This document shows, piece by piece, positions 619 through 36,130 of a stretch of DNA of 36,385 bases. Position 1 is the first letter of the stretch. Every line of letters begins with the position of its first letter. Source of the DNA: a virus; IMG/VR virus record IMGVR_UViG_3300029259_000156, positions 1 through 36,385 of that record; one strand, 5' to 3'. A program made the translations under genes and the position numbers. The notes below the pieces were generated by a model. It saw nothing but the letters and a program-made list of their open reading frames with translations. It was not told the DNA's origin and did no database searches.

Positions 619-2871
619 TTACTTAGCGAAGAAGTAAGTGTTGCCTGTTCCTTCCAACTCATTCTGTATATCACCAATCAGTGTAGGCATATCAACACCT
701 TCTAAGTATAGGTTACGTAGGAATGACTTAGACATAACATCATACTCAAACTGTCCATGCTTCTTATTAATCAGCTTGTCACTGCGCTTCATCTCTTTCT
801 TAGTAGCTCTATTAACGCCTTCAAAGTACATTACTAAGGCATCACTGCCCATTGGTAGCTCAGCTGTTGTGTTATTGTATTGTGAACCAAACAAGCTATT
901 ATAAGCGAACTTGATAGCATTGTGTAGCTTACCACTGATCATGTCAGGCACTGATACTCTGAAACAGTCATGTACAGAATCACAGTGGGTAGCGCCAAGA
1001 CGTTCTAGCTTAGTGATAATCAGCCTAGCTAGCAAGCCATCCATGCTCTGGATGAAGTTAACAAAGCCTGTACGTGAGTAATCATACAAAGCTTCTTCAT
1101 CTGTCTTGAATGTTAGCTTATCAAACTTGAATGTCTCACCTCTTACTGTTAGTGATACATTAGGTGCATCGGCTTGTGCCAGAGTCGCAGTACCAAGGAT
1201 TGTATTCTTTACCTTATAAGATGTAGCTACTAATTGTCCATCAGGTAGGAAGTATGAAGTAGGCTTATCAGTATCCATAACACGTACATAATCTTCACCT
1301 TGCTGTTCGAAGTGCCAATGAGCACATGTAGGTCCGTTGATAGCATTTCTTAGTGCAATCATCTTACTACCAAAGCTACCCTCAACTACCTTGTGGAACA
1401 CCTTAGCAGCCTCTTCTAGGTTGTTATCATAGCTAAGTATGACTGGAAGTAGCGCTATATCCATATCCTTCTTACTTGGATCAGCTATGTATAAACTCTC
1501 GTCTGCAAATGCCATCCAGCTTTGACCATAGAATATACCCATGTATGGAGTCTTAATAAGCTCTCTTGCTCCAGATGCAGGAAATGTAAACCCAGCTGCT
1601 TTTAGGTTCGCAACACATGCCATATAAGCATCATCAACTACTGATTCACTAAATCCACAAGATGCTATTATATCTTCATCACCAACCATCAAGCCACCTA
1701 GCTGTGGTCCTGAGCACTTGGCATCCAAGCCTACTGTAATATCCAAGTAAGGCTGCTCACCATTACGTAGGCGATTGATTAAGTTAGCGATCTTATGAAA
1801 TGCCCAAGGCTTCTTAATCTTCTTAGACTCTTTAGTATTATCATCTATGCACGCCTTGATAAATTCAACATCCCCTAGCTTAGCCAACTGAGCTAATGCT
1901 TGGTCTACTGTACAGCCCTTAATCATATCCTTTGCTTCAGCTATCAGTACTAACAATGCCTTGTCTGTATCATAGTCAAGCGTTACACCATATGGACTAA
2001 CCATTGCTCTAGCCATGTCTGAAGCCTGCACGTTACCACCATGAGCATCACCTTGGTATATACGGAAGCGGGTATCGAAGAAGTACTCGTTAACACTAGG
2101 CACGTTACCTAGATCTACCTGATGCTGGGCACCACTGATTACGAACTGCTCAACCACTACCTTCTGGCCAGCGAATACTAACTTGGCAAGCTCTAGCGTT
2201 GGTATGCAGATAGTGCGCTCATTAAGCTGTAGGAAGTTAAGTGTACGTTGTGATAGCTTACTCAGCTTAGCACCATTCTTAACAACACGCTTACGTCTAT
2301 TCTGCTTGTTGATTCCTTCTGTTGCAGGTCTTGCATATGCTTTTGGCTGATCTTCGTTAAGCATTGCAAGATACTTACCTTCAAGTCCTTCTCGTGTTAT
2401 TAAGTCTGTTGTGACTAAGCACTCAAACCAGTTATCAATCTCCATTTCTTCAACTGTTGTTACTTCATCACCTAGCGCAGTTTTCTTTGTTGCTGTAAGT
2501 ATTGCACCATTGATGCTATTGTTCATGTTACGAATCCATACTTGTGGACGAGACTTAGTAAGAGTTGCCTCATTAACTATGAATGATGTTGCTAAGATAA
2601 GAGCTTGTATTTCAGTAAGCTTGTGCTGAGACTTACGATATAGCTGCTGAGTTATCCTTGCAACCTTCACGCTTTGCGGGATCTTCTTAGTCTTGTTCTC
2701 AACACTTTGTACTACTACGTTAGCTTGAGTAGCCTTTGCTTTAGCTTGTGTGTTGGCGATCAGTGTTTGGAGTGAGTTCATAGCTGGCGATACCTTTGAA
2801 GTAGTTATAGTTGCGTTAGTTGCATTAGTTGCGTTAGTTAGTGCATTGTTAATCATAGAGTTAATAGACAT
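619..2871 (-). CDS. divergent single-subunit RNA polymerase (750 aa)
   Basis: The catalytic core follows the T7 RNA polymerase plan but is very divergent. Residue D266 begins DTRFR, in the place of the T/DxxGR motif, with Phe instead of Gly. Motif A is GLDAKCSGPQL with D383; motif B is LIKTPYMGIFYG with K440 and Y448 (the K-x7-Y spacing of T7); FVNFIQSMDGLLARL matches the T7 segment before motif C; and motif C is SVHDCF with H634 and D635. The presumed catalytic D, K, Y, H and D residues are kept. The N-terminal 100 residues are Asn/Thr/Ala-rich and unlike T7. The start is placed at the ATG at 2871 after AAAGG; a longer frame of 24 codons has no good ribosome binding site. Confidence 0.87.
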   Translation of the reverse strand: MSINSMINNALTNATNATNATITTSKVSPAMNSLQTLIANTQAKAKATQANVVVQSVENKTKKIPQSVKVARITQQLYRKSQHKLTEIQALILATSFIVNEATLTKSRPQVWIRNMNNSINGAILTATKKTALGDEVTTVEEMEIDNWFECLVTTDLITREGLEGKYLAMLNEDQPKAYARPATEGINKQNRRKRVVKNGAKLSKLSQRTLNFLQLNERTICIPTLELAKLVFAGQKVVVEQFVISGAQHQVDLGNVPSVNEYFFDTRFRIYQGDAHGGNVQASDMARAMVSPYGVTLDYDTDKALLVLIAEAKDMIKGCTVDQALAQLAKLGDVEFIKACIDDNTKESKKIKKPWAFHKIANLINRLRNGEQPYLDITVGLDAKCSGPQLGGLMVGDEDIIASCGFSESVVDDAYMACVANLKAAGFTFPASGARELIKTPYMGIFYGQSWMAFADESLYIADPSKKDMDIALLPVILSYDNNLEEAAKVFHKVVEGSFGSKMIALRNAINGPTCAHWHFEQQGEDYVRVMDTDKPTSYFLPDGQLVATSYKVKNTILGTATLAQADAPNVSLTVRGETFKFDKLTFKTDEEALYDYSRTGFVNFIQSMDGLLARLIITKLERLGATHCDSVHDCFRVSVPDMISGKLHNAIKFAYNSLFGSQYNNTTAELPMGSDALVMYFEGVNRATKKEMKRSDKLINKKHGQFEYDVMSKSFLRNLYLEGVDMPTLIGDIQNELEGTGNTYFFAK

Positions 2872-3024
2872 AGTAGTTACCTTTAGTAAGTTAGTTAGGT
2901 CAAGCAATTGCATACTCACATGAGCACACACAATAGAATACAAAAAGACTTTAGAGACTCCTTATACACACACACCACCCAAGCCCCGCAAGCACATACC
3001 ATATATAATATTATTTTGAACCCA

Positions 3025-10384: not shown

Positions 10385-11064
10385 TGTGCAACCTCCCCAT
10401 CAACTCCATCCCCAATATGTCTATGAACATGAGTTAGCATAGACACACCATCTGCGGTTATGTCACCAACTGACTCAATAGAGCCAGAAACATTTAGGTC
10501 TCCAGAGCAATTTATGGTAGGCGTAGTTAGGTTAATCTCAGTACTAGATAATATATTAACTATGGGTGCGGTGATAGTTACTTCACTTACACTATCAATA
10601 GTAATAGTCTCGTCTAAGTTTAAGCTGATTACCTGAGTGCCTTCTAAGTCTCTCCACTGGGAGTGTGTGGCAGAATAATTCTTCACAGCCCTAGGTAGTG
10701 TGTTTAGTCCAACTATTGCATAGCAGTCTTGCATGTCAAACTTCCTGCTCAACCAAGTCATAGGCTTGCTCTTAAATAGTCCTGCTTCATCCTTATCATC
10801 AAAAAGCCAGTGGTCATAGCCCTGCTGACTAAAGAATAGCATACAAGTATTCCCTGTAGTAATAGGCATAGTCACAGACCACCCACCACCTGAGGGAGTA
10901 TGTACAGGTACATCGACAAGTGCATTCCTTTTTACTTTTCCATTTGACTCGTCAGTAGAACTTGACAGCCTCTCTACACATATTTGTATAGTAGCTGTCT
11001 GATCTTCAGGGAAGTACTCCACGATACGCCCAGGAAGGCTTATATACATTTCATCAAGATTCAT
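10381..11064 (-). CDS. baseplate spike protein (Gp138/Mu gp45-like) with histidine-bearing tip (227 aa)
   Basis: The first 100 residues fit a Gp138-type OB-fold domain (LPGRIVEYFPEDQTATIQI, then ALVDVPVHTPSGGGWSVTMP). The C-terminal part is a repetitive beta-helix (ITIDSVSEVTITAPIVNILS and onward, INLTTPTINCSGDLNVSGS) that ends LTHVHRHIGDG. The closely spaced histidines fit a metal ion at the tip of a membrane-piercing spike, as in P2 and phi92 spikes. It would puncture the outer membrane. Its stop overlaps the next start as TTGA. Confidence 0.85.
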   Translation of the reverse strand: MNLDEMYISLPGRIVEYFPEDQTATIQICVERLSSSTDESNGKVKRNALVDVPVHTPSGGGWSVTMPITTGNTCMLFFSQQGYDHWLFDDKDEAGLFKSKPMTWLSRKFDMQDCYAIVGLNTLPRAVKNYSATHSQWRDLEGTQVISLNLDETITIDSVSEVTITAPIVNILSSTEINLTTPTINCSGDLNVSGSIESVGDITADGVSMLTHVHRHIGDGVDGEVAH

Positions 11065-12212
11065 AGTAAATTATCCTTAACTGTATAGGAAACCCTAGTG
11101 AGCGTAGCAGGAGAACTTACTGCTCCCGTGCTATTATTAGTAGGCTCAAGTATGCTATCCCCTATCCTCCTAGCTGCGCCGAGTATATCTTCTGCTGAAG
11201 GTAAAGACTCTCCTGGCTTCCATTGGAATTGATCTTCATACCCAGTCACTCCCCGCACTACACAACCCGAGGCCATACCTAGTAGCTGCTGCCCAACCTC
11301 ATCATCTACCATGTGCATGATGCGGTACTTAGCACCGTAGATAGATCTTGTTAGGTCGCCCATAGCTGTGTTGATAGTGTCAAGGGTTGACTCTTCTAGT
11401 ATGTCTGCTCCTCCACTAATCAAGCAATCTCCTACTTGTTCGAGTCCAGCAGTTATGTCAAAGCCAGTGCTCTGAGCTACTACGTTCGCAACAGTATCCT
11501 TAATGTCTTGGAACATACCTGTGTCAGATGTATTAACTACATATGAGTAGGCATTGGTAATTGCATCCCATCCTGTGTTTATGTAGGTGGCTATACTTGA
11601 TATACCTAGATCATCTGAGCTTTCAATAGAGAAATTAGATCCTAAGTATACTACCGCTTCTTCAAATATTGCACCAACCTTAGTAGGAAACCCTGCTCTG
11701 TTAAGTGCAATCTCCCTAGCTACTGATTCTGCTGGAGTTAGTAGAACCCAAGTAACAGGCACAGGTGCTGTACTATTTACATCCTCTGCTACTATTAACT
11801 CCTCACCAGATATGGTCAGCCTCATTGAGTCAACCATACCAGCTTCTTGTTTAGTCTTAAAACTATTAAAGATTACTGGGTAGTATGTCCCAAGGTTAGT
11901 CGTGACTGTAGCTTTTCTTTTGTTGTTAATTAGATCTTCTATCATAGTAAATACAGACTTAGTATTACTACTAAGAGAATATTGGTAGGCTGTTGCACCT
12001 CCCTTTAACAGTTTGTTAGATATGACAGCTTCTATTGTGACTACTCTGTTCCTACGTATAGCATGATTACTTACAAGAAATCCTAGTTGAACAGGATACT
12101 TTGTAATCTCAGATGAAGCTTGGTGTGACTCTGAGATTATTGCATGAAATCTTATTGATTGCTCTACGTCACCTATAAAGTACTCAATACGTGCAGGCGT
12201 TAGTACTGCCAT
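11061..12212 (-). CDS. Dit-like baseplate protein (383 aa)
   Basis: The N-terminal 130 residues fit a Dit-like distal tail domain: FHAIISESHQASSEITKYPV, LVSNHAIRRNRVVTIEAVIS and a later strand pair (MVDSMRLTISGEELIV). The middle is helical and may span the baseplate (YINTGWDAITNAYSYVVNT), and the C-terminus is Thr/Val-rich. It lies between hub and spike genes. Its stop overlaps the spike ATG as ATGA. Confidence 0.68.
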   Translation of the reverse strand: MAVLTPARIEYFIGDVEQSIRFHAIISESHQASSEITKYPVQLGFLVSNHAIRRNRVVTIEAVISNKLLKGGATAYQYSLSSNTKSVFTMIEDLINNKRKATVTTNLGTYYPVIFNSFKTKQEAGMVDSMRLTISGEELIVAEDVNSTAPVPVTWVLLTPAESVAREIALNRAGFPTKVGAIFEEAVVYLGSNFSIESSDDLGISSIATYINTGWDAITNAYSYVVNTSDTGMFQDIKDTVANVVAQSTGFDITAGLEQVGDCLISGGADILEESTLDTINTAMGDLTRSIYGAKYRIMHMVDDEVGQQLLGMASGCVVRGVTGYEDQFQWKPGESLPSAEDILGAARRIGDSILEPTNNSTGAVSSPATLTRVSYTVKDNLL

Positions 12213-12213
12213 A

Positions 12214-13179
12214 TTATTTACCTCCTTGCCAGCTTAATATTGGCATCTTATTTCCTCTTGTGGGTGAAGTTGCTGTTACTACAGTCCTCCACTCACTAGT
12301 GTAGTTGGATCCTTTATGTATAGCATCAGTTACTTGATATTTAGAAAACCCTAATTGATTGTTTAGTTGGTCAGGGGATACCCTCAGAGACGTCTCTTGC
12401 AAGTTAGTGCCTATTATGTTTAATTCAAATAGCTTTGCAATATCTAGTATAGATCCTCCTTTAATCCTTGGATCTAAGTTGCTAGTTATATTAAGTGATC
12501 CTGGACCTATCTTTGGATTGGCCCTCATGTTTATTATGTTGATTACTATGTCTGGATCTTTATCAGGTAAGTCAGTATGCTTAACTTCATCTAAGTCAGG
12601 AGAGTACACCATATGCAAGTCTCCTTCGTTTGTGTACATACTAAACTTGTGTGTCTTTTGCAATGAGCTAATACACTCCTGTAAAGTTCCAGCATGATTA
12701 GAATACCTACGTCCTGTCCTTTGGTCAGTTAGTCCCTCAGGAAAGTTCTGAAACTTTACAGAACCAAGAAACATACCAGCATCACAAATTTCCTTTAGGA
12801 CCTTTTTAAGTGTGGGCTTGTATACTTTTACATCTATTTGCCTTTCCAGTACTGTCTTTCTAAGTTTGTCAAAGCAATAGAGGGTAGTAATACTGTTAGG
12901 TACTTTCTTCTCCTCTAGTATGTTACTAATAAAGTACTCATCTGCCAGTACATAACTTGGGCCATCATGAAGCCTAGTAGTGATAGATGCGTAATTCTCT
13001 CCATCGGCTAGGCTTTCTATTGTTGCACGACTAAGGTTATATATAACTATAGTACCTCTGCCAAACCCATCTAAGTGTCTAATATCAAAATCTACCCTAA
13101 GCTCGGAAGTCTTAAAGACTTCCTCACCACTTGCATCGACAACTTTGAGGGTAACATGCTGTCCAAATTTCTTTTCCAT
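12214..13179 (-). CDS. baseplate hub protein (T4 gp27/Mu gp44-like, 321 aa)
   Basis: The start is placed at the ATG at 13179, which follows GGAGG and lies just past the tape measure stop; the longer frame would overlap the tape measure gene by about 90 bases. The sequence begins MEKKFGQHVTLKVVDASG and carries the hub pattern of paired beta domains (ELRVDFDIRHLDGFGRGTI, then YFISNILEEKKVPNSITTLY) and a helix, KVLKEICDAGMF. It would form the ring that joins the tail tube to the spike. The family is inferred from pattern and order. Confidence 0.72.
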   Translation of the reverse strand: MEKKFGQHVTLKVVDASGEEVFKTSELRVDFDIRHLDGFGRGTIVIYNLSRATIESLADGENYASITTRLHDGPSYVLADEYFISNILEEKKVPNSITTLYCFDKLRKTVLERQIDVKVYKPTLKKVLKEICDAGMFLGSVKFQNFPEGLTDQRTGRRYSNHAGTLQECISSLQKTHKFSMYTNEGDLHMVYSPDLDEVKHTDLPDKDPDIVINIINMRANPKIGPGSLNITSNLDPRIKGGSILDIAKLFELNIIGTNLQETSLRVSPDQLNNQLGFSKYQVTDAIHKGSNYTSEWRTVVTATSPTRGNKMPILSWQGGK

Positions 13180-13180
13180 A

Positions 13181-16100
13181 CTACCTCCCACTCTTCCATT
13201 TTGTAATATCTCTGAAGAGTTCATCTCCGTTCTCAAGGACCTCTGAGTTGATTCCTTCTTTGTCAACATTAGTATTGACTTCGATATTATTATTTACTAC
13301 ATAGCCTGCCTTTTCACTGCCTGCCTTTGCTATAGAATCTCCTACGTACTGTATATCACTACTAGGTACAACTACTTCATCCGCTTCTTGTGCGGACTTA
13401 AACATAGCAGCAGCTCCTTGGTTGTTTCCACTCCAGAAGTGGCCAGGAGTTGCCACCCCGCTAGTATCAACCATTTCTTTTAACGTAGCATCAGCAGCTC
13501 CACCTATGGCACCGACTGGACCAAATATAGAACCCTTAGCAGCTCCTTCTCCTATGTTTAGCATAGTATCTAAAGTGCTTCCTTCCTCTACATCTAGCAT
13601 CTCCCTGATTCCATACACTGCTAATCCAGTTACCGCAGCAGCGCCTATCTTGCCTTTGTTGTTCAGGATAGCATCTTTAGCTTTCTGTAAGGAACTCCTA
13701 GTGGAGTCAGTATTAGCGCTAGAAGATTCTACTAAGTTACCAGTAGATGGGAAGAACTTGCTCTTTAGAGCCTTAATTGCAGCAGCAGTGGCTATAGCTC
13801 CTACTACCCCTCCCCCTATTGTAGTGGCAGTATTAGATATTGTCTTTCCCATTACGGATGCAAAACCTGTCTCTTCATTGACAGATCCTAGCTCTTCTGT
13901 AGCCCTCTGCTTAAATAGCTCACCCTTTACAACTCCCTTGTATTGAGCACGAGTACCATCAGGATCTATGTACTTGTCAACATCTAATACACTCTTGCCT
14001 TCTACTTCTTCGTATGTTGCAAGTTCTTTATTACCAAATAGGTATTCAGCTGCATAGGCTCTATCTTGTGGGTCTAATTTAGATAACTCCCCAGTTTGGT
14101 ACTTAAGCATCTCTTGTTGGGAAAATGACTTTAGAACATCAATATCAGGTATGTTAACTTTATTCCTTATTGAATCTTCTGCGTTACCCTTAGCTACGTG
14201 CATTTCTGTAAACAGCCTAGCTGCTTCAGTTTTATTGTCAAAGCCTTTAACTAGGGTGCCAGCTCTGGACATAACCTTTGTTGCACCTGTATCACTAAGT
14301 CCACCAGCCATGAGAGCTATCCTTGTACCCCTAGCATGGCCAGCACTTTCGAAACCTTCCTCACTTCTGAGTCTGATTTCTTCCATACCTGTCTCAGTGC
14401 CACTAAGTGCAATACTGCTAATCTCTCCTAACACTGCTATAGATTTACCTACAGCAGACTGGAAGTTACTTAAGGATTTAGATGCATCATTCAAACTCCT
14501 TATGTTTCTACTTTGAGCTTCTTCATATGCAGCAAATTCAGACCTAGCTACATCTGGCTTGTCCACTCCATCATAGCGATCCATAGCAGTATACTTAGGA
14601 TCTGTGTATACAGCATCAGGCTTTCCAGCTTCTAATAGTGCATCTTTAAGCTTATTCCTATGATCCTCTTTCATCATCTGTTCAGCAAACAAGGTGCCAG
14701 AGGCAGAGTTCTCAGTGTTCCTTGAATCTCTTATAGGAGTAGGCTTGAGCTCTGGGTTAGTCATAGTCATTTCGTAGCCAACACCCTTAGAATCTTCTAG
14801 TGCTTCTTTGGCTAGACTTGACTGTTCTGCCTTCATCATCTTTTCAGCGAACAAGGTATTAGAAGCAGAGTTCTCAGGGTTCCTTGAATCTCTAATGGGA
14901 GTGGGCTTGAACTCTGGGTTAGTCATAGTCATTTCATAACCAACACCTTTAGCCTCCTCTAAAGCTTCCTTAGATAAACTAGCTTGTTCTGCCTTAATCA
15001 TCTTCTCCGCAAACAAGGTGCCAGAAGCAGAGTTATCAGGGTTCCTTGAATCTCTAATAGGAGTAGGCTTGAACTCTGGGTTAGTCATAGTCATACTATA
15101 TCCAACACCTCTAGAATCTTCTAGTGCTTCTTTGACTAGGCTAGCTTGTTCTGCCTTAATCATCTTCTCCGCAAACAAGGTGCCAGAAGCAGAGTTATCA
15201 GGGTTCCTTGAATCTCTAATAGGAGATTTGAACTCTGGGTTAGTCATAGTCATTTTATAACTAGTACTTTTAGCAGCATCTAAAGCTTCCTTAGATAAAC
15301 TAGCTTGTTCTGCTTTAGCCATTCTCTCTGCAAACAATGTATTAGAAGCAGAGTTCTCAAGGTTCCTTGAGTCTCTAATAGGAGATTTGAACTCTGGGTT
15401 AGTCATAGTCATTTCATAACCAACACCTTTAGCTCCCTCTAAAGCTTCCTTAGCTAGGTCTCTTTGTTCTTCCTTGATCATCTTCTCAGCAAACAAAGTT
15501 CCCTCAGCAGAGTTAGATGGGTTAGATGTGCTTATGAAGTTTTGTGCAGGTGCAGGTACAGGATTGGAAACCTTGTCTCCTTTCTTTTTGTTCCTGTCAG
15601 AACCTTTAAGTGGGCTATTCGTACTTTCTAGTATGGCTTTAGCTTTATCCCTCTGCTCTTTATTGTGCATAGCTCGCATCTGCTCAGCAAACACTGTATT
15701 GGCGGCAGAGCCATTACCCTCACTAACTGGATTAGAGCCAGAGTAGTTAAAGGCAGTCATTGCAGCCTGTTCTTCTTCTGTTAGGACAACAACTGTAGCC
15801 TTTTCCATAGTCTTTTCCGATGCATGAGAAGCAGTGCTAGACTTCGGCCTCCTAGCACCTTTTACTTTTCCTTCCATATCAATGATCTTCCCATATTTAT
15901 CTAAGCTTTTAGTTACTTCTAGTGCAGACATACCAAGTTCAAGTAATTCATCCTGCATCTCTTTGTCAGCAGATACTACCTCGTGCTTCATCTGTCCTGT
16001 ATCAGCATTCATTGCGTATAGGTGAGTCTGCTTCTCTCCAGTAACCATCATTTGCATTTGCATCTGAGGCATTGTATCTTTTACCACAGACTGGAAAGTC

Positions 16101-18352
16101 CTGTCTCCAAAGTACTTCATCTCTAGTAGGCCTGCACTTTTACCTTCTGAGTCAAACAACCTGCCATCAGGAGAAGCACCAAATCCAGACAACTTACTAT
16201 TAGTCTCAAAGAAAGCCTCTCTATGAGTTAGTCCTTTTCCTTCGTTTGCCATGAATGATCTAAGGACTACATCTTCTTTCTTTGAGCCTCTTACTGTGTA
16301 AGCATTAGATATGTCATCAGCAATACCCATACGTTCTTTGGCAAGAGTAATAGCTAGCCTTTCATCTCCTTTGCCTTTCCAGAGCTCTTTAGCTTTAGAT
16401 CCAGTTACCATACCTTCACGTTGAGCTAACCACTCTTTAGATCCTTGCTCAGGAGAGTTTTTGTCTAGTACTTGCAATGCATACCTTTCCTCATCAGAGC
16501 CAGGCATTGCAAAAGAATCTTTGCTGTGAGTAGGATTAAAGAAGTTTGGCTTGTGTATTTTATCAAGTCTAAAGAAGTTTGGAAGATCAGGGTCAAATTC
16601 CTTTTCCTCCTTAAAATCAAACTCATCAGGCACTCCTGACTTAATCTCTGCCATGTACCTATCAGCTTCTGACTTATCTCCCTCTACACCTAGATTTCTA
16701 TAAGTATCTAACCCACCCATATCTAGAAATGAAGATACCTGATTTCTTTCTTCAAACTGTAAAGCTTGTTCGTCATCTACTGTATCTCTACCTTGTACTC
16801 GCTCGGTGTTGCCTCGGTACTCATCTCTAGTACTTAAAGCAAACCTTCTTAGTGGATCTCTAATGCCTCTTACCTTGTATTCAAGTTCTGCCATAGCAAC
16901 TTTTTGAGAGTGGATAGGATCACTAGCATTCCAATCAATAGGCCTTAATGTATTGGATAGGCTTGGAGCAGACTTTATAATACTCTCTTGCTCAGCCACA
17001 GTAATTTCACCTTGGCCTCTTGCTTTTTCAATTGCAGCAGCATGTTGTATGTAGGTAAATGGGGATGTAGTATTCTTCTGCCCACTATTCAATCCACCAA
17101 ACGTACCTACAGATGCTGTTGCTTTTAGCCCTTCTGTACTTAACTCATTAGGTGTAGGTAGGAATACATCACTACTCCAAGATCTATCTTTATCCAAGAT
17201 CCAGTTAGTAAGCTCTCCCTCCAACTGCCTAGTACGCTGGGCATACAAGTTAGTTGGTCCGTACTTCTTAGCAGCGTCAGTGAAGTAGGATGGGGCTATA
17301 TCTCTTATGCCTTGGAAAGCATTCATGAGTTGATCATTGGCTTTGTCATTAGCTTTCTCACTTAGCCTCTGGCCAACCATCCTACCACCTGGGCCTATCT
17401 GTAAGTACTCGTCAGAACTTCTCATAGTTCCTAATGTCTGTACTACATCTTGCCTACTGGGTATATGCTTTCTTACCTCAGTAGGTTTCATAGTAACAGG
17501 ATCAATAGTAGTTATATCACCTATGTATGCATCCTTTGGCATGTTCATCTTTGCTGCTGTCTCTGCGGCAGGAACGCCTGTGGCATCTTCAAATGCCTCT
17601 ACTGATGCCATTACATCTATCTGGCGTAGTCCGTGAATGCTTACATCTATGTTACCAGATAGTATATCTCTGGTAAGTCTTTGTACACTTAGGCTAAGGT
17701 GGCCTGTTCTTTCTATTAGTAGTGATTCAGACAGGCCACTTATTGCCTCTTCCTCTGACTTCTCTGCCCTAGCTGAACCAGCTCGTTCCTCTTTTGCCTT
17801 GGCTACATCAGCTGCACGTGCATTGTTTATAGCTATAGCTTCTTGTATAGTATGGGCAGATTTAGCATCCTTCCATATAAGGTCACCATGTTTGTTATAC
17901 TCTCTATGTATACTTCCAGTTACATCTGGTGCAGTGTCAGTACCATAAGTATTAGGTGGAAGCACACCCCCAGTAACACTAGTTTCCTGTTCAAGCCTGC
18001 GCCTTTCTATTCTGGCCTCATTTAGATCCTCTATTACCACCCCATGCCCATCTACTGGAATACCATCAGACCAATGAGGATTAGGATTTTGGTTGCTAGG
18101 ATCTGGTAGGTATCTTATTTGACTGCTAAGCAGTCTATCACTTCTTACACTATCAGTACTATCTGCACCAGTGCTTACATCGACCTTATTACCAGAGATA
18201 TCATTCTGAGCTAACCAGTCATTTCCTATTCCTTCATTAAGATCTAGCTCCTCACCTTGGAAGCCAGTACCTCTAAATTCTATTTCTCGCTCGTCTTGTG
18301 AGCGTAGGTCATTAGATCCATCCATCTCACTTGCGTAATCATCGTAATCCAT
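13181..18352 (-). CDS. tape measure protein with internal YqaJ-type nuclease domain (1723 aa)
   Basis: Position after the chaperone, great length, two hydrophobic segments near the C-terminus (around GGGVVGAIATAAAIKAL and GAAAVTGLAVYGI) and the tail-end segment YVVNNNIEVNTNV identify the tape measure protein, which sets tail length and leaves with the DNA. The first 600 residues are hydrophilic and low in order. Residues about 630-810 form a YqaJ/lambda-exonuclease-like PD-(D/E)xK domain: KEWLAQREGMVTGSK (W641, R645), SPDG with D729, LLEMK with E744 and K746, and QMQMQMMVTG. Residues about 945-1245 hold repeats of about 54 aa (NSASxTLFAEKMxKAEQ...GYEMTMTNPEFK...IRDSRN). AGAGG precedes the ATG. 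A nuclease domain here is unusual. Confidence 0.9.
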   Translation of the reverse strand: MDYDDYASEMDGSNDLRSQDEREIEFRGTGFQGEELDLNEGIGNDWLAQNDISGNKVDVSTGADSTDSVRSDRLLSSQIRYLPDPSNQNPNPHWSDGIPVDGHGVVIEDLNEARIERRRLEQETSVTGGVLPPNTYGTDTAPDVTGSIHREYNKHGDLIWKDAKSAHTIQEAIAINNARAADVAKAKEERAGSARAEKSEEEAISGLSESLLIERTGHLSLSVQRLTRDILSGNIDVSIHGLRQIDVMASVEAFEDATGVPAAETAAKMNMPKDAYIGDITTIDPVTMKPTEVRKHIPSRQDVVQTLGTMRSSDEYLQIGPGGRMVGQRLSEKANDKANDQLMNAFQGIRDIAPSYFTDAAKKYGPTNLYAQRTRQLEGELTNWILDKDRSWSSDVFLPTPNELSTEGLKATASVGTFGGLNSGQKNTTSPFTYIQHAAAIEKARGQGEITVAEQESIIKSAPSLSNTLRPIDWNASDPIHSQKVAMAELEYKVRGIRDPLRRFALSTRDEYRGNTERVQGRDTVDDEQALQFEERNQVSSFLDMGGLDTYRNLGVEGDKSEADRYMAEIKSGVPDEFDFKEEKEFDPDLPNFFRLDKIHKPNFFNPTHSKDSFAMPGSDEERYALQVLDKNSPEQGSKEWLAQREGMVTGSKAKELWKGKGDERLAITLAKERMGIADDISNAYTVRGSKKEDVVLRSFMANEGKGLTHREAFFETNSKLSGFGASPDGRLFDSEGKSAGLLEMKYFGDRTFQSVVKDTMPQMQMQMMVTGEKQTHLYAMNADTGQMKHEVVSADKEMQDELLELGMSALEVTKSLDKYGKIIDMEGKVKGARRPKSSTASHASEKTMEKATVVVLTEEEQAAMTAFNYSGSNPVSEGNGSAANTVFAEQMRAMHNKEQRDKAKAILESTNSPLKGSDRNKKKGDKVSNPVPAPAQNFISTSNPSNSAEGTLFAEKMIKEEQRDLAKEALEGAKGVGYEMTMTNPEFKSPIRDSRNLENSASNTLFAERMAKAEQASLSKEALDAAKSTSYKMTMTNPEFKSPIRDSRNPDNSASGTLFAEKMIKAEQASLVKEALEDSRGVGYSMTMTNPEFKPTPIRDSRNPDNSASGTLFAEKMIKAEQASLSKEALEEAKGVGYEMTMTNPEFKPTPIRDSRNPENSASNTLFAEKMMKAEQSSLAKEALEDSKGVGYEMTMTNPELKPTPIRDSRNTENSASGTLFAEQMMKEDHRNKLKDALLEAGKPDAVYTDPKYTAMDRYDGVDKPDVARSEFAAYEEAQSRNIRSLNDASKSLSNFQSAVGKSIAVLGEISSIALSGTETGMEEIRLRSEEGFESAGHARGTRIALMAGGLSDTGATKVMSRAGTLVKGFDNKTEAARLFTEMHVAKGNAEDSIRNKVNIPDIDVLKSFSQQEMLKYQTGELSKLDPQDRAYAAEYLFGNKELATYEEVEGKSVLDVDKYIDPDGTRAQYKGVVKGELFKQRATEELGSVNEETGFASVMGKTISNTATTIGGGVVGAIATAAAIKALKSKFFPSTGNLVESSSANTDSTRSSLQKAKDAILNNKGKIGAAAVTGLAVYGIREMLDVEEGSTLDTMLNIGEGAAKGSIFGPVGAIGGAADATLKEMVDTSGVATPGHFWSGNNQGAAAMFKSAQEADEVVVPSSDIQYVGDSIAKAGSEKAGYVVNNNIEVNTNVDKEGINSEVLENGDELFRDITKWKSGR
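14630..15515 (-). repeat. array of about 160-bp coding repeats in the tape measure gene
   Basis: Five near-identical units and a degenerate sixth encode 53-55 residues each, reading NSASGTLFAEKM.KAEQASL, KEALE..KGVGYEMTMTNPEF and (PT)PIRDSRN. A more distant copy lies upstream (SAANTVFAEQM). Units differ by a two-codon PT insertion and by single-residue changes, and DNA identity between neighbours is high, a sign of recent duplication. The predicted helix-turn repeat lies between the nuclease and the hydrophobic end, where extra units could alter tail length. Confidence 0.88.
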
Positions 18353-18403: not shown

Positions 18404-18975
18404 TTATGATGTATGTCCCTTAATTTCTATGATCTGATGAAACATCTCTAGGTCATACAAATTATAAGTCCCATCTTGTAACTCTTTAAGAGAACACATG
18501 GGAGGACTCACTAGTAAAGGTCTAATAAGATACCCATTAAGTTCTGGGTATATATCACCAAATTCTATTGGTATAGTTACATCTTCACCAGTTACGTAGC
18601 TTCTGGGGAGACTGCCTTTGCTAAGCCTAATTCGAAAAAACTGCTAAACTGTGAGTGCATTACATGTGCAAACATCTCCACAATTAACTCTAGCTTACTT
18701 TCAAACATACTGTCTATTGTCTTTGCTTCTATCTTCTTGCCATCAATTCTTACTTGGCATACGAAGTGTGTAAGTAGCTTAGCTGCTTTGTGAGCATCAC
18801 TAGCCTGCATTATTCCTACTACTACAGCTGCTGTGTTTAGCTCAGCTATAGTTACTACATTCTCTGATCCTAGTACTTGACCAGCTAGTGTGAGGTTTTC
18901 CAAGGCCACTGTTACAGGCCAAGCTGGTATATATATCTCACTACCATCTTTAAGTGTTGCTGAGTATCCAGCCAT
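18404..18975 (-). CDS. tail assembly chaperone, long form made by -1 frameshift (GT-like, 190 aa)
   Basis: Slipping back one base at T_TTT_TTC (residues 113-114 of the short form) opens a continuous frame that passes the short-form stop and runs to the TAA at 18404-18406. The added 76 residues begin RIRLSKGSLPRSYVTGEDV and end with YDLEMFHQIIEIKGHTS. The two frames overlap, the total length is consistent with one -1 shift, and no start codon with a good ribosome binding site serves the second frame. This is the lambda G/GT arrangement. Direct proof would need protein data. Confidence 0.85.
18592..18975 (-). CDS. tail assembly chaperone, short form (G-like, 127 aa)
   Basis: It lies between the tail tube and tape measure genes, the fixed place of tail assembly chaperones. 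The protein has a beta-rich N-terminus (YSATLKDGSEIYIPAWP) and a helical C-terminal half (KIEAKTIDSMFESKLELIV). It is translated to the TAA at 18592-18594. A slippery site near its end gives a longer form. The chaperone binds the tape measure protein and recruits tube subunits, and is not part of the finished virion. GGAG precedes the ATG. Confidence 0.85.
   Translation of the reverse strand: MAGYSATLKDGSEIYIPAWPVTVALENLTLAGQVLGSENVVTIAELNTAAVVVGIMQASDAHKAAKLLTHFVCQVRIDGKKIEAKTIDSMFESKLELIVEMFAHVMHSQFSSFFELGLAKAVSPEAT
18634..18640 (-). promoter_or_regulatory. -1 ribosomal frameshift slippery heptamer T_TTT_TTC
   Basis: On the minus strand the zero-frame codons are AGT TTT TTC, which gives the canonical X_XXY_YYZ heptamer TTTTTTC. 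It is 14 codons before the short-form stop. I see no strong downstream hairpin, which is common for this type of slip site in phage chaperone genes. Confidence 0.85.
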
Positions 18976-19072: not shown

Positions 19073-19558
19073 TTATAAAGCGTCGTAGTCGCCGCCATGC
19101 TCACGTACATATGTTACTGTCTCGAAGGTCAGTACCCAAGTGACTGTATTCATAGTTTGCCCACGAGCCATAGCTGGCATAGCAAGGATGATACCGTTAG
19201 TCATAACAGCTGCATCTTTACCCATGTTATCAACTAGTGTTGCTTGGATAGGAACTATTAATTCACCATCTGCATCTGCTTGCTGATTAAAGTGGTTAGC
19301 CCAATCCTGAAGATACTTATTCTCAGGAGCGTTCATAAGAACTGGGAAGGATAAGTCACCTGCACGAATACGTTGCATGTTAACTACCATCGGGCCATAA
19401 GCTCCAAAGGTAGTAGTAGCATTAGGTGCACGACGATTAACTGTGATTAGGTTTTCACCTGTTGCGAAACCCTTTACCTTGAAGGTGGTAGGGTTTGTGT
19501 TACCAAAAAAGTCACACTCTAAAATGAGGTCGACATTAGCGAAGGAGTACTGGTACAT
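19073..19558 (-). CDS. tail tube protein (DUF3277 type)
   Basis: The 161-aa protein starts with YQYSFANVDLILE and continues with TTFGAYGPMVVNMQRIRAGD and GIILAMPAMARGQTMNTVTW, a pattern typical of DUF3277 tube proteins that follow DUF3383 sheaths. It forms the inner tube through which DNA passes. AAGGAA precedes the ATG. A strong terminator-like hairpin follows its stop. Confidence 0.88.
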   Translation of the reverse strand: MYQYSFANVDLILECDFFGNTNPTTFKVKGFATGENLITVNRRAPNATTTFGAYGPMVVNMQRIRAGDLSFPVLMNAPENKYLQDWANHFNQQADADGELIVPIQATLVDNMGKDAAVMTNGIILAMPAMARGQTMNTVTWVLTFETVTYVREHGGDYDAL

Positions 19559-19570
19559 TTATATAGTTCC

Positions 19571-21025
19571 TTATTCTGAGAAGTTGCCAGAGATTGTAAG
19601 TTCGTGCAATGCACCTGCTCCAACCATATCGAAACCTAAGCCATTGTAGACTCGGTTAGACTTATCACTACCTGCGGTATCTTCTAAGGATACCATAGTA
19701 ACTCTGAAGCCCTCTGGTAGGAAAGTTCCATTCGGTAGGTAGCCTGGAGCTGAAAGGCCATTACGTACAGCAGCCTGTAGAGACTGTGTTAGTCTGGCAG
19801 CAGCAATGTTTAAGCCTTCTTGAGTATAAGGCAGCTTAGTGTTATTGACATAAAGCAGGTTAAACATATCTACTTCACATCTATTCTCTAACCACAACAA
19901 GCCATGGGTAGTATCTAACCATGAGCCAGAAGCCATACGTGAACTTGTATAAGCATTTACAGAAGAACCAATCTTAACTACAGCAGAAACATTCTTAGCC
20001 TTCATAGCAGAGTACTCACCTGGAGTTAGATCTTCTGCAATGATAGTAGGCATTTGCTTAAGGTTAAGTGTGATGGTTGTATCAATACCTGAGAAGTTAA
20101 CTGAGGCTGCACGGCCAAATACAGATACAGATGGGTAAGCATCAACTGCTTTACTAAAGGTAGTAAGAGAGAATCTTAGAGTCTTACTCTTCAACACAGA
20201 TCCAATGTCAGTGCTAATAGCAGAAGACAATGTAGTAAGGTTGTTAGTAGTGTTCATGAAGATCTTCTTAGCAGCTTCAGCCCAGTCAGCTATATCAGCT
20301 GTATTCTCTCCAGAGGCTTGTGCAGCAATGTCACGGTACTTCTTGTGAGTAGCTAAGCCAACAAATTGAATACCTTGTGTAAGTGCAGAGGCTAGGCCAG
20401 CTACAGCATTCTCTGCGTCGATACCTAAAGAGATCTTACCTTGATGCTGTGCAAAGCCTAGAGCTTCAGCAGTGTCACCAACAGCAAAGGTGATGATAGA
20501 AGAAGCGCCATCTACCTGAGACTTCATTTCAAAACCATAAGGTGTGCGGGTTACTATCGCAACTTCTGAGGCTGAGTTGGCTGCTGTAATGAGGGTTGTA
20601 ATCTCAGCTGCTACTCCATCAAGGTCAGTCTCTGTAGATAGGTCAACACCAGTTAGTGTAGTTAGTAAGCCATCTACTGTGAATGACATAGAGCCATTAG
20701 TAATAAGATTAAGCTCCTCTAGTGTACCACTGTCACCACCTGTTAGTACCGCAGGCTGAGCTGACTCAAATGCCATAAGAACTGTGAAGTCTTTAGGTGT
20801 AGGTGTTTGTGCGTAGAAAGCTGTAGCAGCCTTATACACTTCTGTACTTGTGGACCAATCGCCACCTACGCTTGCTAAGCTTGTATAAGCTCGGGCACGT
20901 TCTGCTGTGCCAATAACTCCTAGCTCATTAGTTAGGAATCCGAGAATACCAAAATTACCACCAGCAACTCCTGTAGGAGAGACTGAAATGTTAACATTAG
21001 TAAACTCTGTAATTTCAATAGCCAT
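19571..21025 (-). CDS. contractile tail sheath protein (DUF3383 type)
   Basis: This 484-aa protein fits the DUF3383 sheath family. The N-terminus has VGGDWSTSTEVYKAATAFYA followed by PKDFTVLMAF; the middle has a domain with LTGVDLSTETDLDGVAAEI; and the C-terminal part includes SWLDTTHGLLWLENRCEVD and QEGLNIAAARLTQSLQ, the conserved sheath core. It surrounds the tube and contracts on infection, which identifies the phage as a myovirus. AAGGAA precedes the ATG. The tube gene follows after 12 bases. Confidence 0.92.
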   Translation of the reverse strand: MAIEITEFTNVNISVSPTGVAGGNFGILGFLTNELGVIGTAERARAYTSLASVGGDWSTSTEVYKAATAFYAQTPTPKDFTVLMAFESAQPAVLTGGDSGTLEELNLITNGSMSFTVDGLLTTLTGVDLSTETDLDGVAAEITTLITAANSASEVAIVTRTPYGFEMKSQVDGASSIITFAVGDTAEALGFAQHQGKISLGIDAENAVAGLASALTQGIQFVGLATHKKYRDIAAQASGENTADIADWAEAAKKIFMNTTNNLTTLSSAISTDIGSVLKSKTLRFSLTTFSKAVDAYPSVSVFGRAASVNFSGIDTTITLNLKQMPTIIAEDLTPGEYSAMKAKNVSAVVKIGSSVNAYTSSRMASGSWLDTTHGLLWLENRCEVDMFNLLYVNNTKLPYTQEGLNIAAARLTQSLQAAVRNGLSAPGYLPNGTFLPEGFRVTMVSLEDTAGSDKSNRVYNGLGFDMVGAGALHELTISGNFSE

Positions 21026-33316: not shown

Positions 33317-33318
33317 TT
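33289..33318 (-). repeat. 30-bp direct repeat, copy A (upstream of the packaging and structural operon)
   Basis: This copy is identical over 30 bases to 33233-33262, with a centre spacing of 56 bases. Its core on the plus strand is GTATTTTAAATAC, an inverted repeat of 6-base arms around one base. It ends inside the stop codon of the RNA polymerase gene and lies upstream of the terminase genes on the minus strand. It is a candidate promoter for a phage polymerase or a paired operator. Confidence 0.9.
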
Positions 33319-35161
33319 ATACAAAGAATCGGTCAAGATTGTATAGTGTATCAGGCCTCCAACTGCCTAACGCTGGAGTTGGATCTAGCTTAATTGTGTA
33401 TAAGTCCTCCCAGTAATCCTTTAGTTCATTTAGGTAATCCCTACTATAAAGCTCTACGAAAGTCCCAATAATTATCTTATAAAGAACATCCCTGTAGTTA
33501 CAGTGGGTAGCAAACGAGTCATGGATAAATATCATAGGCAAGCCTAACTCCTTCAAGCGTCTAGCAACCATCCTGAGGTGGGTAGCATCTAAGCTGTGTA
33601 TTACATTAGGTGCAATGGCTGACTTGTGCTTGGCAGAGTTAGGTGTATCTACTGTAAAGTCTAGTATCTGTAACGTGAGTCTATCGCCACTACTTAACTT
33701 GCAGTCTAAGTCCAGTCTAGACCCCTTAACCTTCCTTTGCAAACAAGTAAACCCATCAGGAGTAGGCCAGCGTATCTCTACATTACCTATGTTTGAGATA
33801 GTATGGGCACAGTTACTTACCCAATCTACCGCTGCCTGTAGTGGACCTAGAGTAATGCTAAGCTGTCTGTATAGCTCACACCCCAGCCTGCTAGTCTCCC
33901 CTCTTTCTAGTCCCTCCCCTACCTTTACATACTCAAACAGATCTGGATCCCAGAACTGCTCAGCACCGAACAACTTACCCATGTGATCCATAGAGGTCAT
34001 CATAGTTGCATTGTATCCCCAAGTCATAACAGGAATCTTAGTAGCCTTCCTAGTCGCCAAATACTGTTCCTCTGGCGGCAGTGTGTCCTTCCAATCGCTA
34101 GCTACCTTCTCATATATATCTAGCTCATGCTCTTCTTTATGCATGCCCAAATGCTTGGTAATAGCGTTTGATCTAACCACAGCAGACCAATGCTGTAAGC
34201 CAGAACACCTGCCGTCCAGTGGTATGAAGGCAGGTATAGCCTCCAAAGGATCAGCCAAATACCTACGGATAAGGTCGGCACAAGCCATGTAGCTGTAAGG
34301 TTTATCAGCTTTCTTCCATTCATTCTCGTAATTCTCTGGTTTTGATGCATGACTAGCCATCGTAAAAACATCCCAATCCTGCTCAGAGTATCCTCTTGCA
34401 GCTTCCTTCAGAGCTTCAAATCCATCCTCATTAAGTGGTAATGCGTAAGTAGGTATTAGTAGGGCCTTCTCATGATCTGCCCCTTGTGGAGTAAATCCGC
34501 ATGTAGTATCTGTGTACATTCTTCCACGGCTATCAAGAAAGTAAGGGAACTTAAACTTATCCTTGGCCATCTTATGAGCTGCCTTCATAGTCCTGTTATA
34601 CATATAGTATGAACTGGACTTATCAAACTCTGGAGGAAACTTATCTATTAAGCTAAGTGTGAAGCTATTAATTTCAAACTCTTCTTGAGCCATATCAGAT
34701 GTTATAGCAGATACTTCCCTATTCATGATATTGCCTACACCACCACGTATGGGCGCTCTAGGTATATCTTCACCAGCTAGCTTAGGATAGGAGATAGCAC
34801 TTTCAGGCGCTCTCTCACAGTCTAACTCTAGCTCAAGGAACTTCTTAGTGGGCATTACTACCCTCTCGTCAAACCCTCTCTCTAGTGTTATGTACCCAGC
34901 TAACTCCATCTCACCCATGAACCTTAAAGCAACATTGAACGCGTCAGTAACTTCCAACATCTTACGTGCAATGCGGGGCACTACTGAGTGGAGGGGAAGT
35001 TCAAAGTGCAAAGGGAGTGAGTATAAGCAATGCAAGTAAGCTCTTTCCCACCTGCCATTCTTATCCTTATCCCACCTTCTCTGGTTAATATCATTAGGCC
35101 TAGCAAACCCTTTAGGTCTACAAGGCTCTGGCAACATAATGCCGCCATCTAGATTGATCAT
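33317..35161 (-). CDS. T7-type single-subunit DNA-dependent RNA polymerase (614 aa)
   Basis: This is a phage transcriptase of the T7/mitochondrial family. All signature elements are present: the T/DxxGR motif as DSRGR from D210; motif A, PLDGRCSGLQHW, with metal-binding D316; motif B, TKIPVMTWGY, with K375 and Y383 (the K-x7-Y spacing of T7 K631/Y639); the segment IAPNVIHSLDATHLR; and motif C, IHDSF, with H547 and D548. The segment between PDGF and IAPN corresponds to the T7 specificity-loop region. It is about 270 residues shorter than T7 RNA polymerase. The DSRGR motif lies about 210 residues earlier, so most of the missing length is in the N-terminal domain that in T7 helps promoter binding and opening. 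AGGAGG precedes the ATG. Two identical 30-bp repeats begin at its stop codon. Confidence 0.95.
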   Translation of the reverse strand: MINLDGGIMLPEPCRPKGFARPNDINQRRWDKDKNGRWERAYLHCLYSLPLHFELPLHSVVPRIARKMLEVTDAFNVALRFMGEMELAGYITLERGFDERVVMPTKKFLELELDCERAPESAISYPKLAGEDIPRAPIRGGVGNIMNREVSAITSDMAQEEFEINSFTLSLIDKFPPEFDKSSSYYMYNRTMKAAHKMAKDKFKFPYFLDSRGRMYTDTTCGFTPQGADHEKALLIPTYALPLNEDGFEALKEAARGYSEQDWDVFTMASHASKPENYENEWKKADKPYSYMACADLIRRYLADPLEAIPAFIPLDGRCSGLQHWSAVVRSNAITKHLGMHKEEHELDIYEKVASDWKDTLPPEEQYLATRKATKIPVMTWGYNATMMTSMDHMGKLFGAEQFWDPDLFEYVKVGEGLERGETSRLGCELYRQLSITLGPLQAAVDWVSNCAHTISNIGNVEIRWPTPDGFTCLQRKVKGSRLDLDCKLSSGDRLTLQILDFTVDTPNSAKHKSAIAPNVIHSLDATHLRMVARRLKELGLPMIFIHDSFATHCNYRDVLYKIIIGTFVELYSRDYLNELKDYWEDLYTIKLDPTPALGSWRPDTLYNLDRFFV

Positions 35162-35173
35162 GTTGCCTCCTAG

Positions 35174-36130
35174 TTAAACGTCAGATGTAGATTTATCGTG
35201 TCTTTCTTCTCCTACTTTAGGCAGTCTTAGCTTGCCCTTGCTAGACTCTTCTAGTGCATAGACTTGGAAGATCTTGCCAACTGGAGTATCTATGTTAGGG
35301 TGACTTGCACAATGATACATACTAGCAGCTAGCTCATGAGACCAGCCTTTCCCTAGCATACACTTGATAACTACACCTTCTTTCCACTTAAATAATAGGT
35401 TAGCTATCTTGCGTTTGTACTTACCCTTACCTTCTTCCCAGCCAATGCAAAGTAAGTCGTAGTCACAACCACGAACTATTTTCATTTTACGATAGCCTTT
35501 GTGTCCAGCCTCCCAGCCAGCAGATGGATCACATATTACTATGCCTTCCTCGCCTCTTTCAGTTTGCTGGCCAGCCCATAGACGAATTAGCTCTTCAGAC
35601 TCTACTTCGTGTGTTGGCAGTACATGAACCCAAGGACTTCTACTCGATTTACGATAACGATCAGTTAAGTTCTCGTGTCGAGTTTGGAAAGGAGTCTGGT
35701 CATAACCTTTGATAAATGCCTTAGTACTTACCATGTCATAGAAAAACATTTCTAAGTCAATAGCAATGTACTGCTGTTCTTTATTTAGGTCTTTAGTCCT
35801 ATTAGGGTTAACTATGCCTGACATTACCTCAAGGGATACTGACTTGTTAACCATCTCACCAAAGTACGCACCATCTCGAAAGTCCATACTAGTTATTGAA
35901 TGCTCAAGTGCCCAAGTATTAGTAAATCGCTTACCAGTCCTGCTCCAAATAGTAGCAAGCCCATTAAGGATAACTACAATTGCACACACACCATCTTTCT
36001 TGACTTGCAGTGAAAATACCTTACCAGTCTTATTCTTCTCCACTACTTCATCCCAATTCTTTACTAGTTGGGTAGTTTTATTTGCCTTGCGGTAATCTTT
36101 ACTAAGGCCAAATACTTCGAATATACTCAT
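35174..36130 (-). CDS. ATP-dependent DNA ligase, T7 type
   Basis: This enzyme would seal nicks in phage DNA using ATP. The nucleotidyltransferase motifs are visible in order: motif I KKDG at residues 44-47, with K44 as the likely AMP-accepting lysine; a motif III-like segment, AYFGEMV; motif IV, EEGIVI; and motif V, KMK. At 318 aa it is close to the short phage ligases such as T7 gp1.3 (about 359 aa), with room for only a small C-terminal OB-fold domain. GGGG precedes the ATG. It is followed after 12 bases by the RNA polymerase gene, a ligase/RNA polymerase neighbourhood reminiscent of T7-like phages rather than of myoviruses with this structural module. An RNA ligase is less likely because motif V and the overall pattern fit the T7-type DNA enzyme. 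Confidence 0.87.
   Translation of the reverse strand: MSIFEVFGLSKDYRKANKTTQLVKNWDEVVEKNKTGKVFSLQVKKDGVCAIVVILNGLATIWSRTGKRFTNTWALEHSITSMDFRDGAYFGEMVNKSVSLEVMSGIVNPNRTKDLNKEQQYIAIDLEMFFYDMVSTKAFIKGYDQTPFQTRHENLTDRYRKSSRSPWVHVLPTHEVESEELIRLWAGQQTERGEEGIVICDPSAGWEAGHKGYRKMKIVRGCDYDLLCIGWEEGKGKYKRKIANLLFKWKEGVVIKCMLGKGWSHELAASMYHCASHPNIDTPVGKIFQVYALEESSKGKLRLPKVGEERHDKSTSDV

Follow-up and report, generated by a model that had tools for sequence, protein, structure and literature searches.

The 36,385-bp viral fragment analyzed here (IMGVR_UViG_3300029259_000156; hereafter the window) encodes a 1723-aa protein in the tape-measure slot of its tail genes, and this protein bears a YqaJ/lambda-exonuclease domain at residues ~628–815 (15908..16471, minus strand), as detected with Pfam, PHROG, a PDB profile search, and AlphaFold2 combined with Foldseek. 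The domain is almost certainly a genuine member of this nuclease family, and the tails of these viruses probably contain a DNA nuclease able to act during the entry of their DNA into the cell. The arrangement was confirmed as a new one of known parts, namely a known nuclease family in a known protein slot, in a combination found in no paper. Our search for papers on a DNA nuclease within a tape measure, which returned none, covered mainly the open literature, and an earlier mention is possible.

The structural genes of the window lie on the minus strand in the order terminase, portal, protease, major head protein, tail completion, sheath, tube, tail assembly chaperone, 1723-aa protein, baseplate hub, Dit-like protein, and baseplate wedge. 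The 1723-aa protein is encoded by a single open frame (13181..18352, minus strand) between the tail assembly chaperone (18592..18975; PHROG 11820, Pfam PF21822) and the baseplate hub (12214..13269; PHROG 196). Flanking these, and likewise on the minus strand, are the tail tube protein of the KPP10 Orf10 family (19073..19558; PHROG 280, Pfam PF11681) and the tail sheath (19571..21025; PHROG 205, Pfam PF11863) on one side, and the Dit-like tail protein (11061..12212; Pfam PF21821) on the other. This gene order places the 1723-aa protein in the tape-measure slot. Its frame is the longest gene between chaperone and hub, as in relatives, and the window contains no competitor for the tape measure role. 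As listed, the hub frame starts within the end of the tape measure gene, and its real start may thus be located further in. In the stretch that separates the nuclease domain from the C-terminal part of the 1723-aa protein, Tandem Repeats Finder identified an array of 5.2 copies of a 162-bp unit (54 aa; 14673..15514, minus strand), and these protein repeats may set the tail length.

Two traits of the Chaseviridae were present in the window, the contractile tail sheath (PF11863) and a T7-like single-subunit RNA polymerase of 614 aa (33317..35161, minus strand; Pfam PF00940, 8.6e-46), a hallmark common to that family. The nearest cultured relatives by sheath were indeed Chaseviridae. Since the best sheath identity was 39%, the window phage would represent at most a distant or sister lineage of the family, whose other criteria are a genome of 52–56 kb, terminal repeats of ~3 kb, and a position within the family in core-gene phylogeny, the window being a 36-kb fragment.

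A sequence-only reading of the window had recognized the marks of a YqaJ nuclease inside the tape measure, and all of them were found at the residues it gave: W641, R645, S727-P-D729-G, E744-M-K746, and QMQMQM from 763. Pfam YqaJ (PF09588) matched residues 640–773 with 6.2e-9 and 36.7 bits (curated cut-off 22), and PHROG 434, "RecE-like recombination exonuclease", matched residues 630–805 with 6.4e-15, while the TIGR03033 score of the domain was under that model's own cut-off (23.6 vs 68). In searches of the PDB, the single sequence retrieved LHK-Exo (3syy, 1.4e-4), and a profile of eight related domains retrieved LHK-Exo (3syy, 1.5e-22) and lambda exonuclease (1avq, 3e-13). The structure prediction that the reading had called for gave the lambda-exonuclease fold: AlphaFold2 modeled residues 623–830 from a 48-sequence alignment with a pLDDT of 88.8 and a pTM of 0.85 (a model from only 8 sequences, with a pLDDT of 47, was discarded), and the best Foldseek matches of the model were LHK-Exo (3sz4, 3.6e-11; 3syy, 2.1e-10) and lambda exonuclease (3slp, 2.1e-9). 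The domain resembles lambda exonuclease (Red alpha), LHK-Exo, and YqaJ proteins (PF09588, TIGR03033, PHROG 434) in its fold, in the motif order W..R..S/T..G..E..PD..ExK..Q, and in its active-site residues.

In the HMMER alignment, D729, E744, and K746 fall on the SPDG and E-x-K motifs of lambda exonuclease, which makes D729 (codon 16166..16168, minus strand) the equivalent of D119, and E744 and K746 (codons of E744-M745-K746 at 16115..16123, minus strand) those of E129 and K131; PDB entry 3sm4 is lambda exonuclease carrying K131A, namely a substitution of the lysine equivalent to K746. Across 48 very divergent sequences, both tail-embedded and free, W641, R645, G689, E693, D729, E744, and K746 were invariant. 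A dead enzyme was considered unlikely given this invariance of the catalytic residues. The family matches, the predicted fold, and the intact catalytic residues all bore out a real YqaJ/lambda-exonuclease domain within the tape measure, and the domain is probably catalytically active. Members of this family are Mg-dependent 5′–3′ exonucleases that form a trimeric ring.

The fusion was not confined to a single assembly. The same single frame was found in a near-identical contig (99.98% over 18.7 kb) and in a divergent one whose domain is 46% identical. A profile scan of viral contigs for the domain produced two clean classes, embedded and free: in loci L050–L060 it lies inside frames of 948–1735 aa adjoining the hub and Dit genes, and the chaperone where the contig extends that far, whereas in loci L061–L092 it occurs as free proteins of 200–422 aa, and none of these loci showed a tail gene. 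Loci L040–L042 provided additional embedded cases. The proposed search for other tape measures with the domain yielded, apart from the window and with near-copies counted once, some ten divergent metagenomic phages, along with all 17 cultured Chaseviridae scanned, and bacterial genomes scanned with the domain profile contained only two free enzymes. A sequencing or assembly error joining a free exonuclease gene to a tail gene could draw on two older records, Spp001 (L010) and pAh6-C (L018), in which the tape measure gene occupies two or three frames and is broken near or in the nuclease domain. Against this stand the unbroken frames of 948–1735 aa in many independent genomes, and, because the arrangement recurs in contigs that are divergent and were assembled independently, such a fusion is ruled out for practical purposes.

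All 17 of the 17 cultured Chaseviridae scanned, which represent both subfamilies, and three uncultured records had exactly one PF09588 match each, which scored above the cut-off and lay in the tape-measure slot. A further search, of ten records including eight new ones, gave one YqaJ match each; CP-T1, a more distant contractile-tailed relative, gave no YqaJ match in the PF09588 scan. The presence of one YqaJ per genome, in the tape measure, together with a domain more conserved than its flanks in most pairs, pointed to a core rather than an accessory function. An accessory gene was regarded as unlikely, one YqaJ being present in each family genome scanned. The description as an unusual effector calls for qualification, given that the domain turned up in all Chaseviridae genomes scanned as well as in uncultured phages that form a sister group. 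In databases, most of these genes go by "tail fiber", "virion structural protein", or "hypothetical", and the few GenBank labels that hint at a nuclease are "exonuclease" with a "yqaJ" note in ZPAH14, "exonuclease" in LA93P1/2, and "putative endonuclease" in SKA49; the ICTV profile of the Chaseviridae leaves the nuclease domain unmentioned. Among the carriers, coliphage flopper was isolated on E. coli K-12 MG1655. The record of Pel53 (L043, PP952070.1) names Staphylococcus hyicus as the host, a label that may be wrong since the Chaseviridae are a family of Gammaproteobacteria phages. Close relatives of Spp001 and pAh6-C have the tape measure gene in one frame, and the splits in these two records are either sequencing errors or real.

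The domain-bearing protein is present in virions of a cultured relative, Escherichia phage 4HA13, in which the domain occupies residues 442–631 of the tape measure. The LC-MS/MS analysis of its virion reported 15 proteins at ≥50% coverage, with the tape measure second in a list of twelve proteins with high-abundance peptides, which ranks this protein among the major ones of the virion (PMC9699118). The domain is very likely virion-borne throughout the family; its delivery into the cell appears somewhat better than an even prospect.

To evaluate the constraint on the domain, dN/dS values were compared with those of its flanks, with the reservation that synonymous sites are close to saturation in distant pairs: they were 0.088 for the domain and 0.233/0.227 for the flanks in Mangalitsa–4HA13, 0.109 and 0.209/0.218 in 4HA13–PO103, and 0.31 and 0.57/0.55 in window–L004, while ZPAH14–PVN03 displayed no difference between domain and flanks. 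In most pairs compared, no other part of the protein changed as slowly as the domain.

Within the Cleopatravirinae, sequence comparison indicates that the nuclease block is exchanged between tape measures by recombination, as a cassette. Two domain types, ~60% identical, occur in proteins that are otherwise 80–93% identical (GJ1, MLP1, flopper, Pel53, TH37, JL1). The tape measures of GJ1 and Pel53 are flopper-like with an MLP1-like central block. Over the domain, nucleotide identity was 0.94–0.98 for GJ1–MLP1 but 0.52–0.67 for GJ1–flopper, and outside the block GJ1–flopper identity was mostly 0.85–1.00. On another backbone, PO103 and TH37 compared with MLP1 gave the same contrast, with flanks at 0.89–0.92 and the domain at 0.58. 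At least two swaps are therefore represented, one in GJ1/Pel53 against flopper/JL1 and the other in MLP1 against PO103/TH37, and the different left breakpoints of GJ1 and Pel53 likewise suggest more than one exchange. In the structural half of GJ1, the block at ~38.5–40.5 kb is the only MLP1-like stretch; a gene for immunity tracking the domain type, sought through this mosaic profile, did not appear as a second such block there, and the early half was too mosaic to judge. The domain tree contained three tail-embedded groups, each staying together. In the best tree, the tail-embedded domains all fall on one side of a branch with support 35/61, which is compatible with one or several origins.

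The reading that we favor is that of a 5′–3′ exonuclease carried in the virion and brought in as the genome enters, where it would most likely resect the ends of the incoming genome, a step that would involve the terminal repeats and the avoidance of RecBCD; end resection as the main role is advanced tentatively, at somewhat below even probability. Tape measures exit the tail at ejection, lambda-type exonucleases start at free double-stranded ends and digest the 5′ strand, the circular host chromosome has no free ends, and RecBCD requires near-blunt ends. As tape measures do, the protein would precede or accompany the DNA out of the tail, and its nuclease domain would refold inside the cell. 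Because the enzyme class starts from free ends and the circular chromosome offers none, the first free double-stranded end met by this putative 5′–3′ exonuclease would be that of the incoming phage genome. Within the ~3-kb terminal repeats, removal of 5′-strand sequence would then create 3′ single-stranded tails, which could block RecBCD loading before the expression of any phage gene, and the exposed complementary repeats might anneal, leading to circularisation or recombination. Limited 5′ trimming within terminal repeats would cost no information. Chaseviridae have linear genomes with terminal repeats of ~3 kb (PMC12842549), that is, ends whose trimming is tolerated; those of 4HA13 measured 3120 bp.

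These phages encode a separate 5′–3′ exonuclease, SSB, and ligase for replication, so that the tail copy is not needed there. In addition, PF03837 and PF04404 gave no match to a RecT/ERF annealing protein in 13 records; the window itself is a 36-kb fragment. The separate replication enzymes and the lack of a detected RecT/ERF together favored a role at entry over a replicative one. The classical recombination pair of exonuclease and annealing protein was set aside on the same RecT and ERF result. Several points weigh against end resection. Only the leading genome end adjoins the tape measure; with no RecT/ERF detected, annealing would have to rely on SSB or host proteins; and the exchange of two domain types as cassettes would be expected more of an antagonistic than of a housekeeping role. 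Moreover, the narrow lumen of the tail tube leaves little room for a folded domain, which would have to sit there unfolded or threaded.

The strongest argument for a weapon or counter-defence function comes from the cassette exchange. In this reading, the injected nuclease would target other DNA, for example plasmids resident in the cell, genomes of competing phages, host DNA with breaks, or an intermediate DNA of a defence system, and two allelic types would persist as hosts or competitors adapt to one; the block was, after all, swapped between tape measures at least twice. Injected anti-defence proteins are represented by T4 Ip1-3 (PMC12373910). Like these, the end-protecting proteins T4 gp2 and Mu N come with the virion and act within minutes of the start of entry; all of them are separate proteins that bind or inhibit, whereas the present case would be a nuclease within the tail ruler. 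The SNIPE defence nuclease contacts siphovirus tape measures during injection (PMC13190303). Nevertheless, a domain shared by all family genomes scanned speaks for a core role, the structural half of the GJ1 mosaic profile revealed no linked immunity gene, and the enzyme class requires free ends. PADLOC returned no defence-system match. Furthermore, cells infected with coliphage Tiny, a close relative of MLP1, retained condensed but still stained nucleoids under DAPI at 20–60 min (PMC13340011). We regard this function as unlikely, at roughly one chance in four. The same stained nucleoids, together with the need for free ends, rendered the cutting of host DNA the weakest of the options raised by the sequence-only reading, and mass destruction of the host chromosome is disfavored. 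A broader proposition, that the family delivers a lambda-exonuclease-type nuclease via the tail as part of the tape measure, that the module is exchanged as allelic cassettes under host or competitor pressure, and that the tape measure is an injected DNA-processing effector, seems possible but is on the doubtful side.

A DNA-gripping module, which would mainly hold the DNA end in the tail or at ejection with cleavage secondary or absent, would suit a fold that binds DNA ends, the ring-shaped trimer of lambda exonuclease, and the few tape measure copies per tail. Binding alone, however, would not demand that the metal-binding and catalytic D729, E744, and K746 be invariant in very divergent copies, and this reading is improbable. 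Slightly less probable still is a late or assembly role, in which the nuclease would act in the producing cell, for example on concatemers or late host DNA, and then merely be carried into the tail. The protein is indeed made late in the producing cell, but replication and packaging are served by other nucleases encoded in these genomes, and the fusion to the tape measure would have no purpose.

If end resection is true, a nuclease at the leading end of the genome would be a new answer to the long-standing question of how linear phage DNA withstands RecBCD between its arrival in the cell and gene expression. The arrangement also bears on the passage of enzyme domains through the narrow tail tube. 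Known YqaJ members are free enzymes of 200–400 aa, usually encoded beside a single-strand annealing protein, whereas here the domain is internal to a tail protein of 1165–1735 aa. The enzymes known from tape measures cut the cell wall; SLT transglycosylase or peptidase domains, for instance, likewise place an enzyme in the tail ruler, but for opening the wall. The tape measures of the Chaseviridae (GJ1 gp62, 4HA13 gp67, Mangalitsa gp68, ZPAH14 gp34) share gene position and embedded domain with the window protein, which differs from them in its greater length, in its 54-aa repeat array, and in that no SLT domain was detected in it. Some tape measures of the Cleopatravirinae combine both enzymes: besides the nuclease, that of Mangalitsa (L009:5362-8859) has an SLT transglycosylase at residues 971–1075, near the C-terminus.

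In addition to the genes described above, the window contains an ATP-dependent DNA ligase gene (35174–36130, minus strand; PF01068, PF14743) and a second T7-like single-subunit RNA polymerase gene of 774 aa (619–2943, minus strand). The two polymerases, of 774 and 614 aa, are only 25% identical over 203 aa. One single-subunit RNA polymerase is annotated per genome in three Chaseviridae gene lists, and frames of 705–727 aa in relatives gave weak matches to the single-subunit RNA polymerase family.
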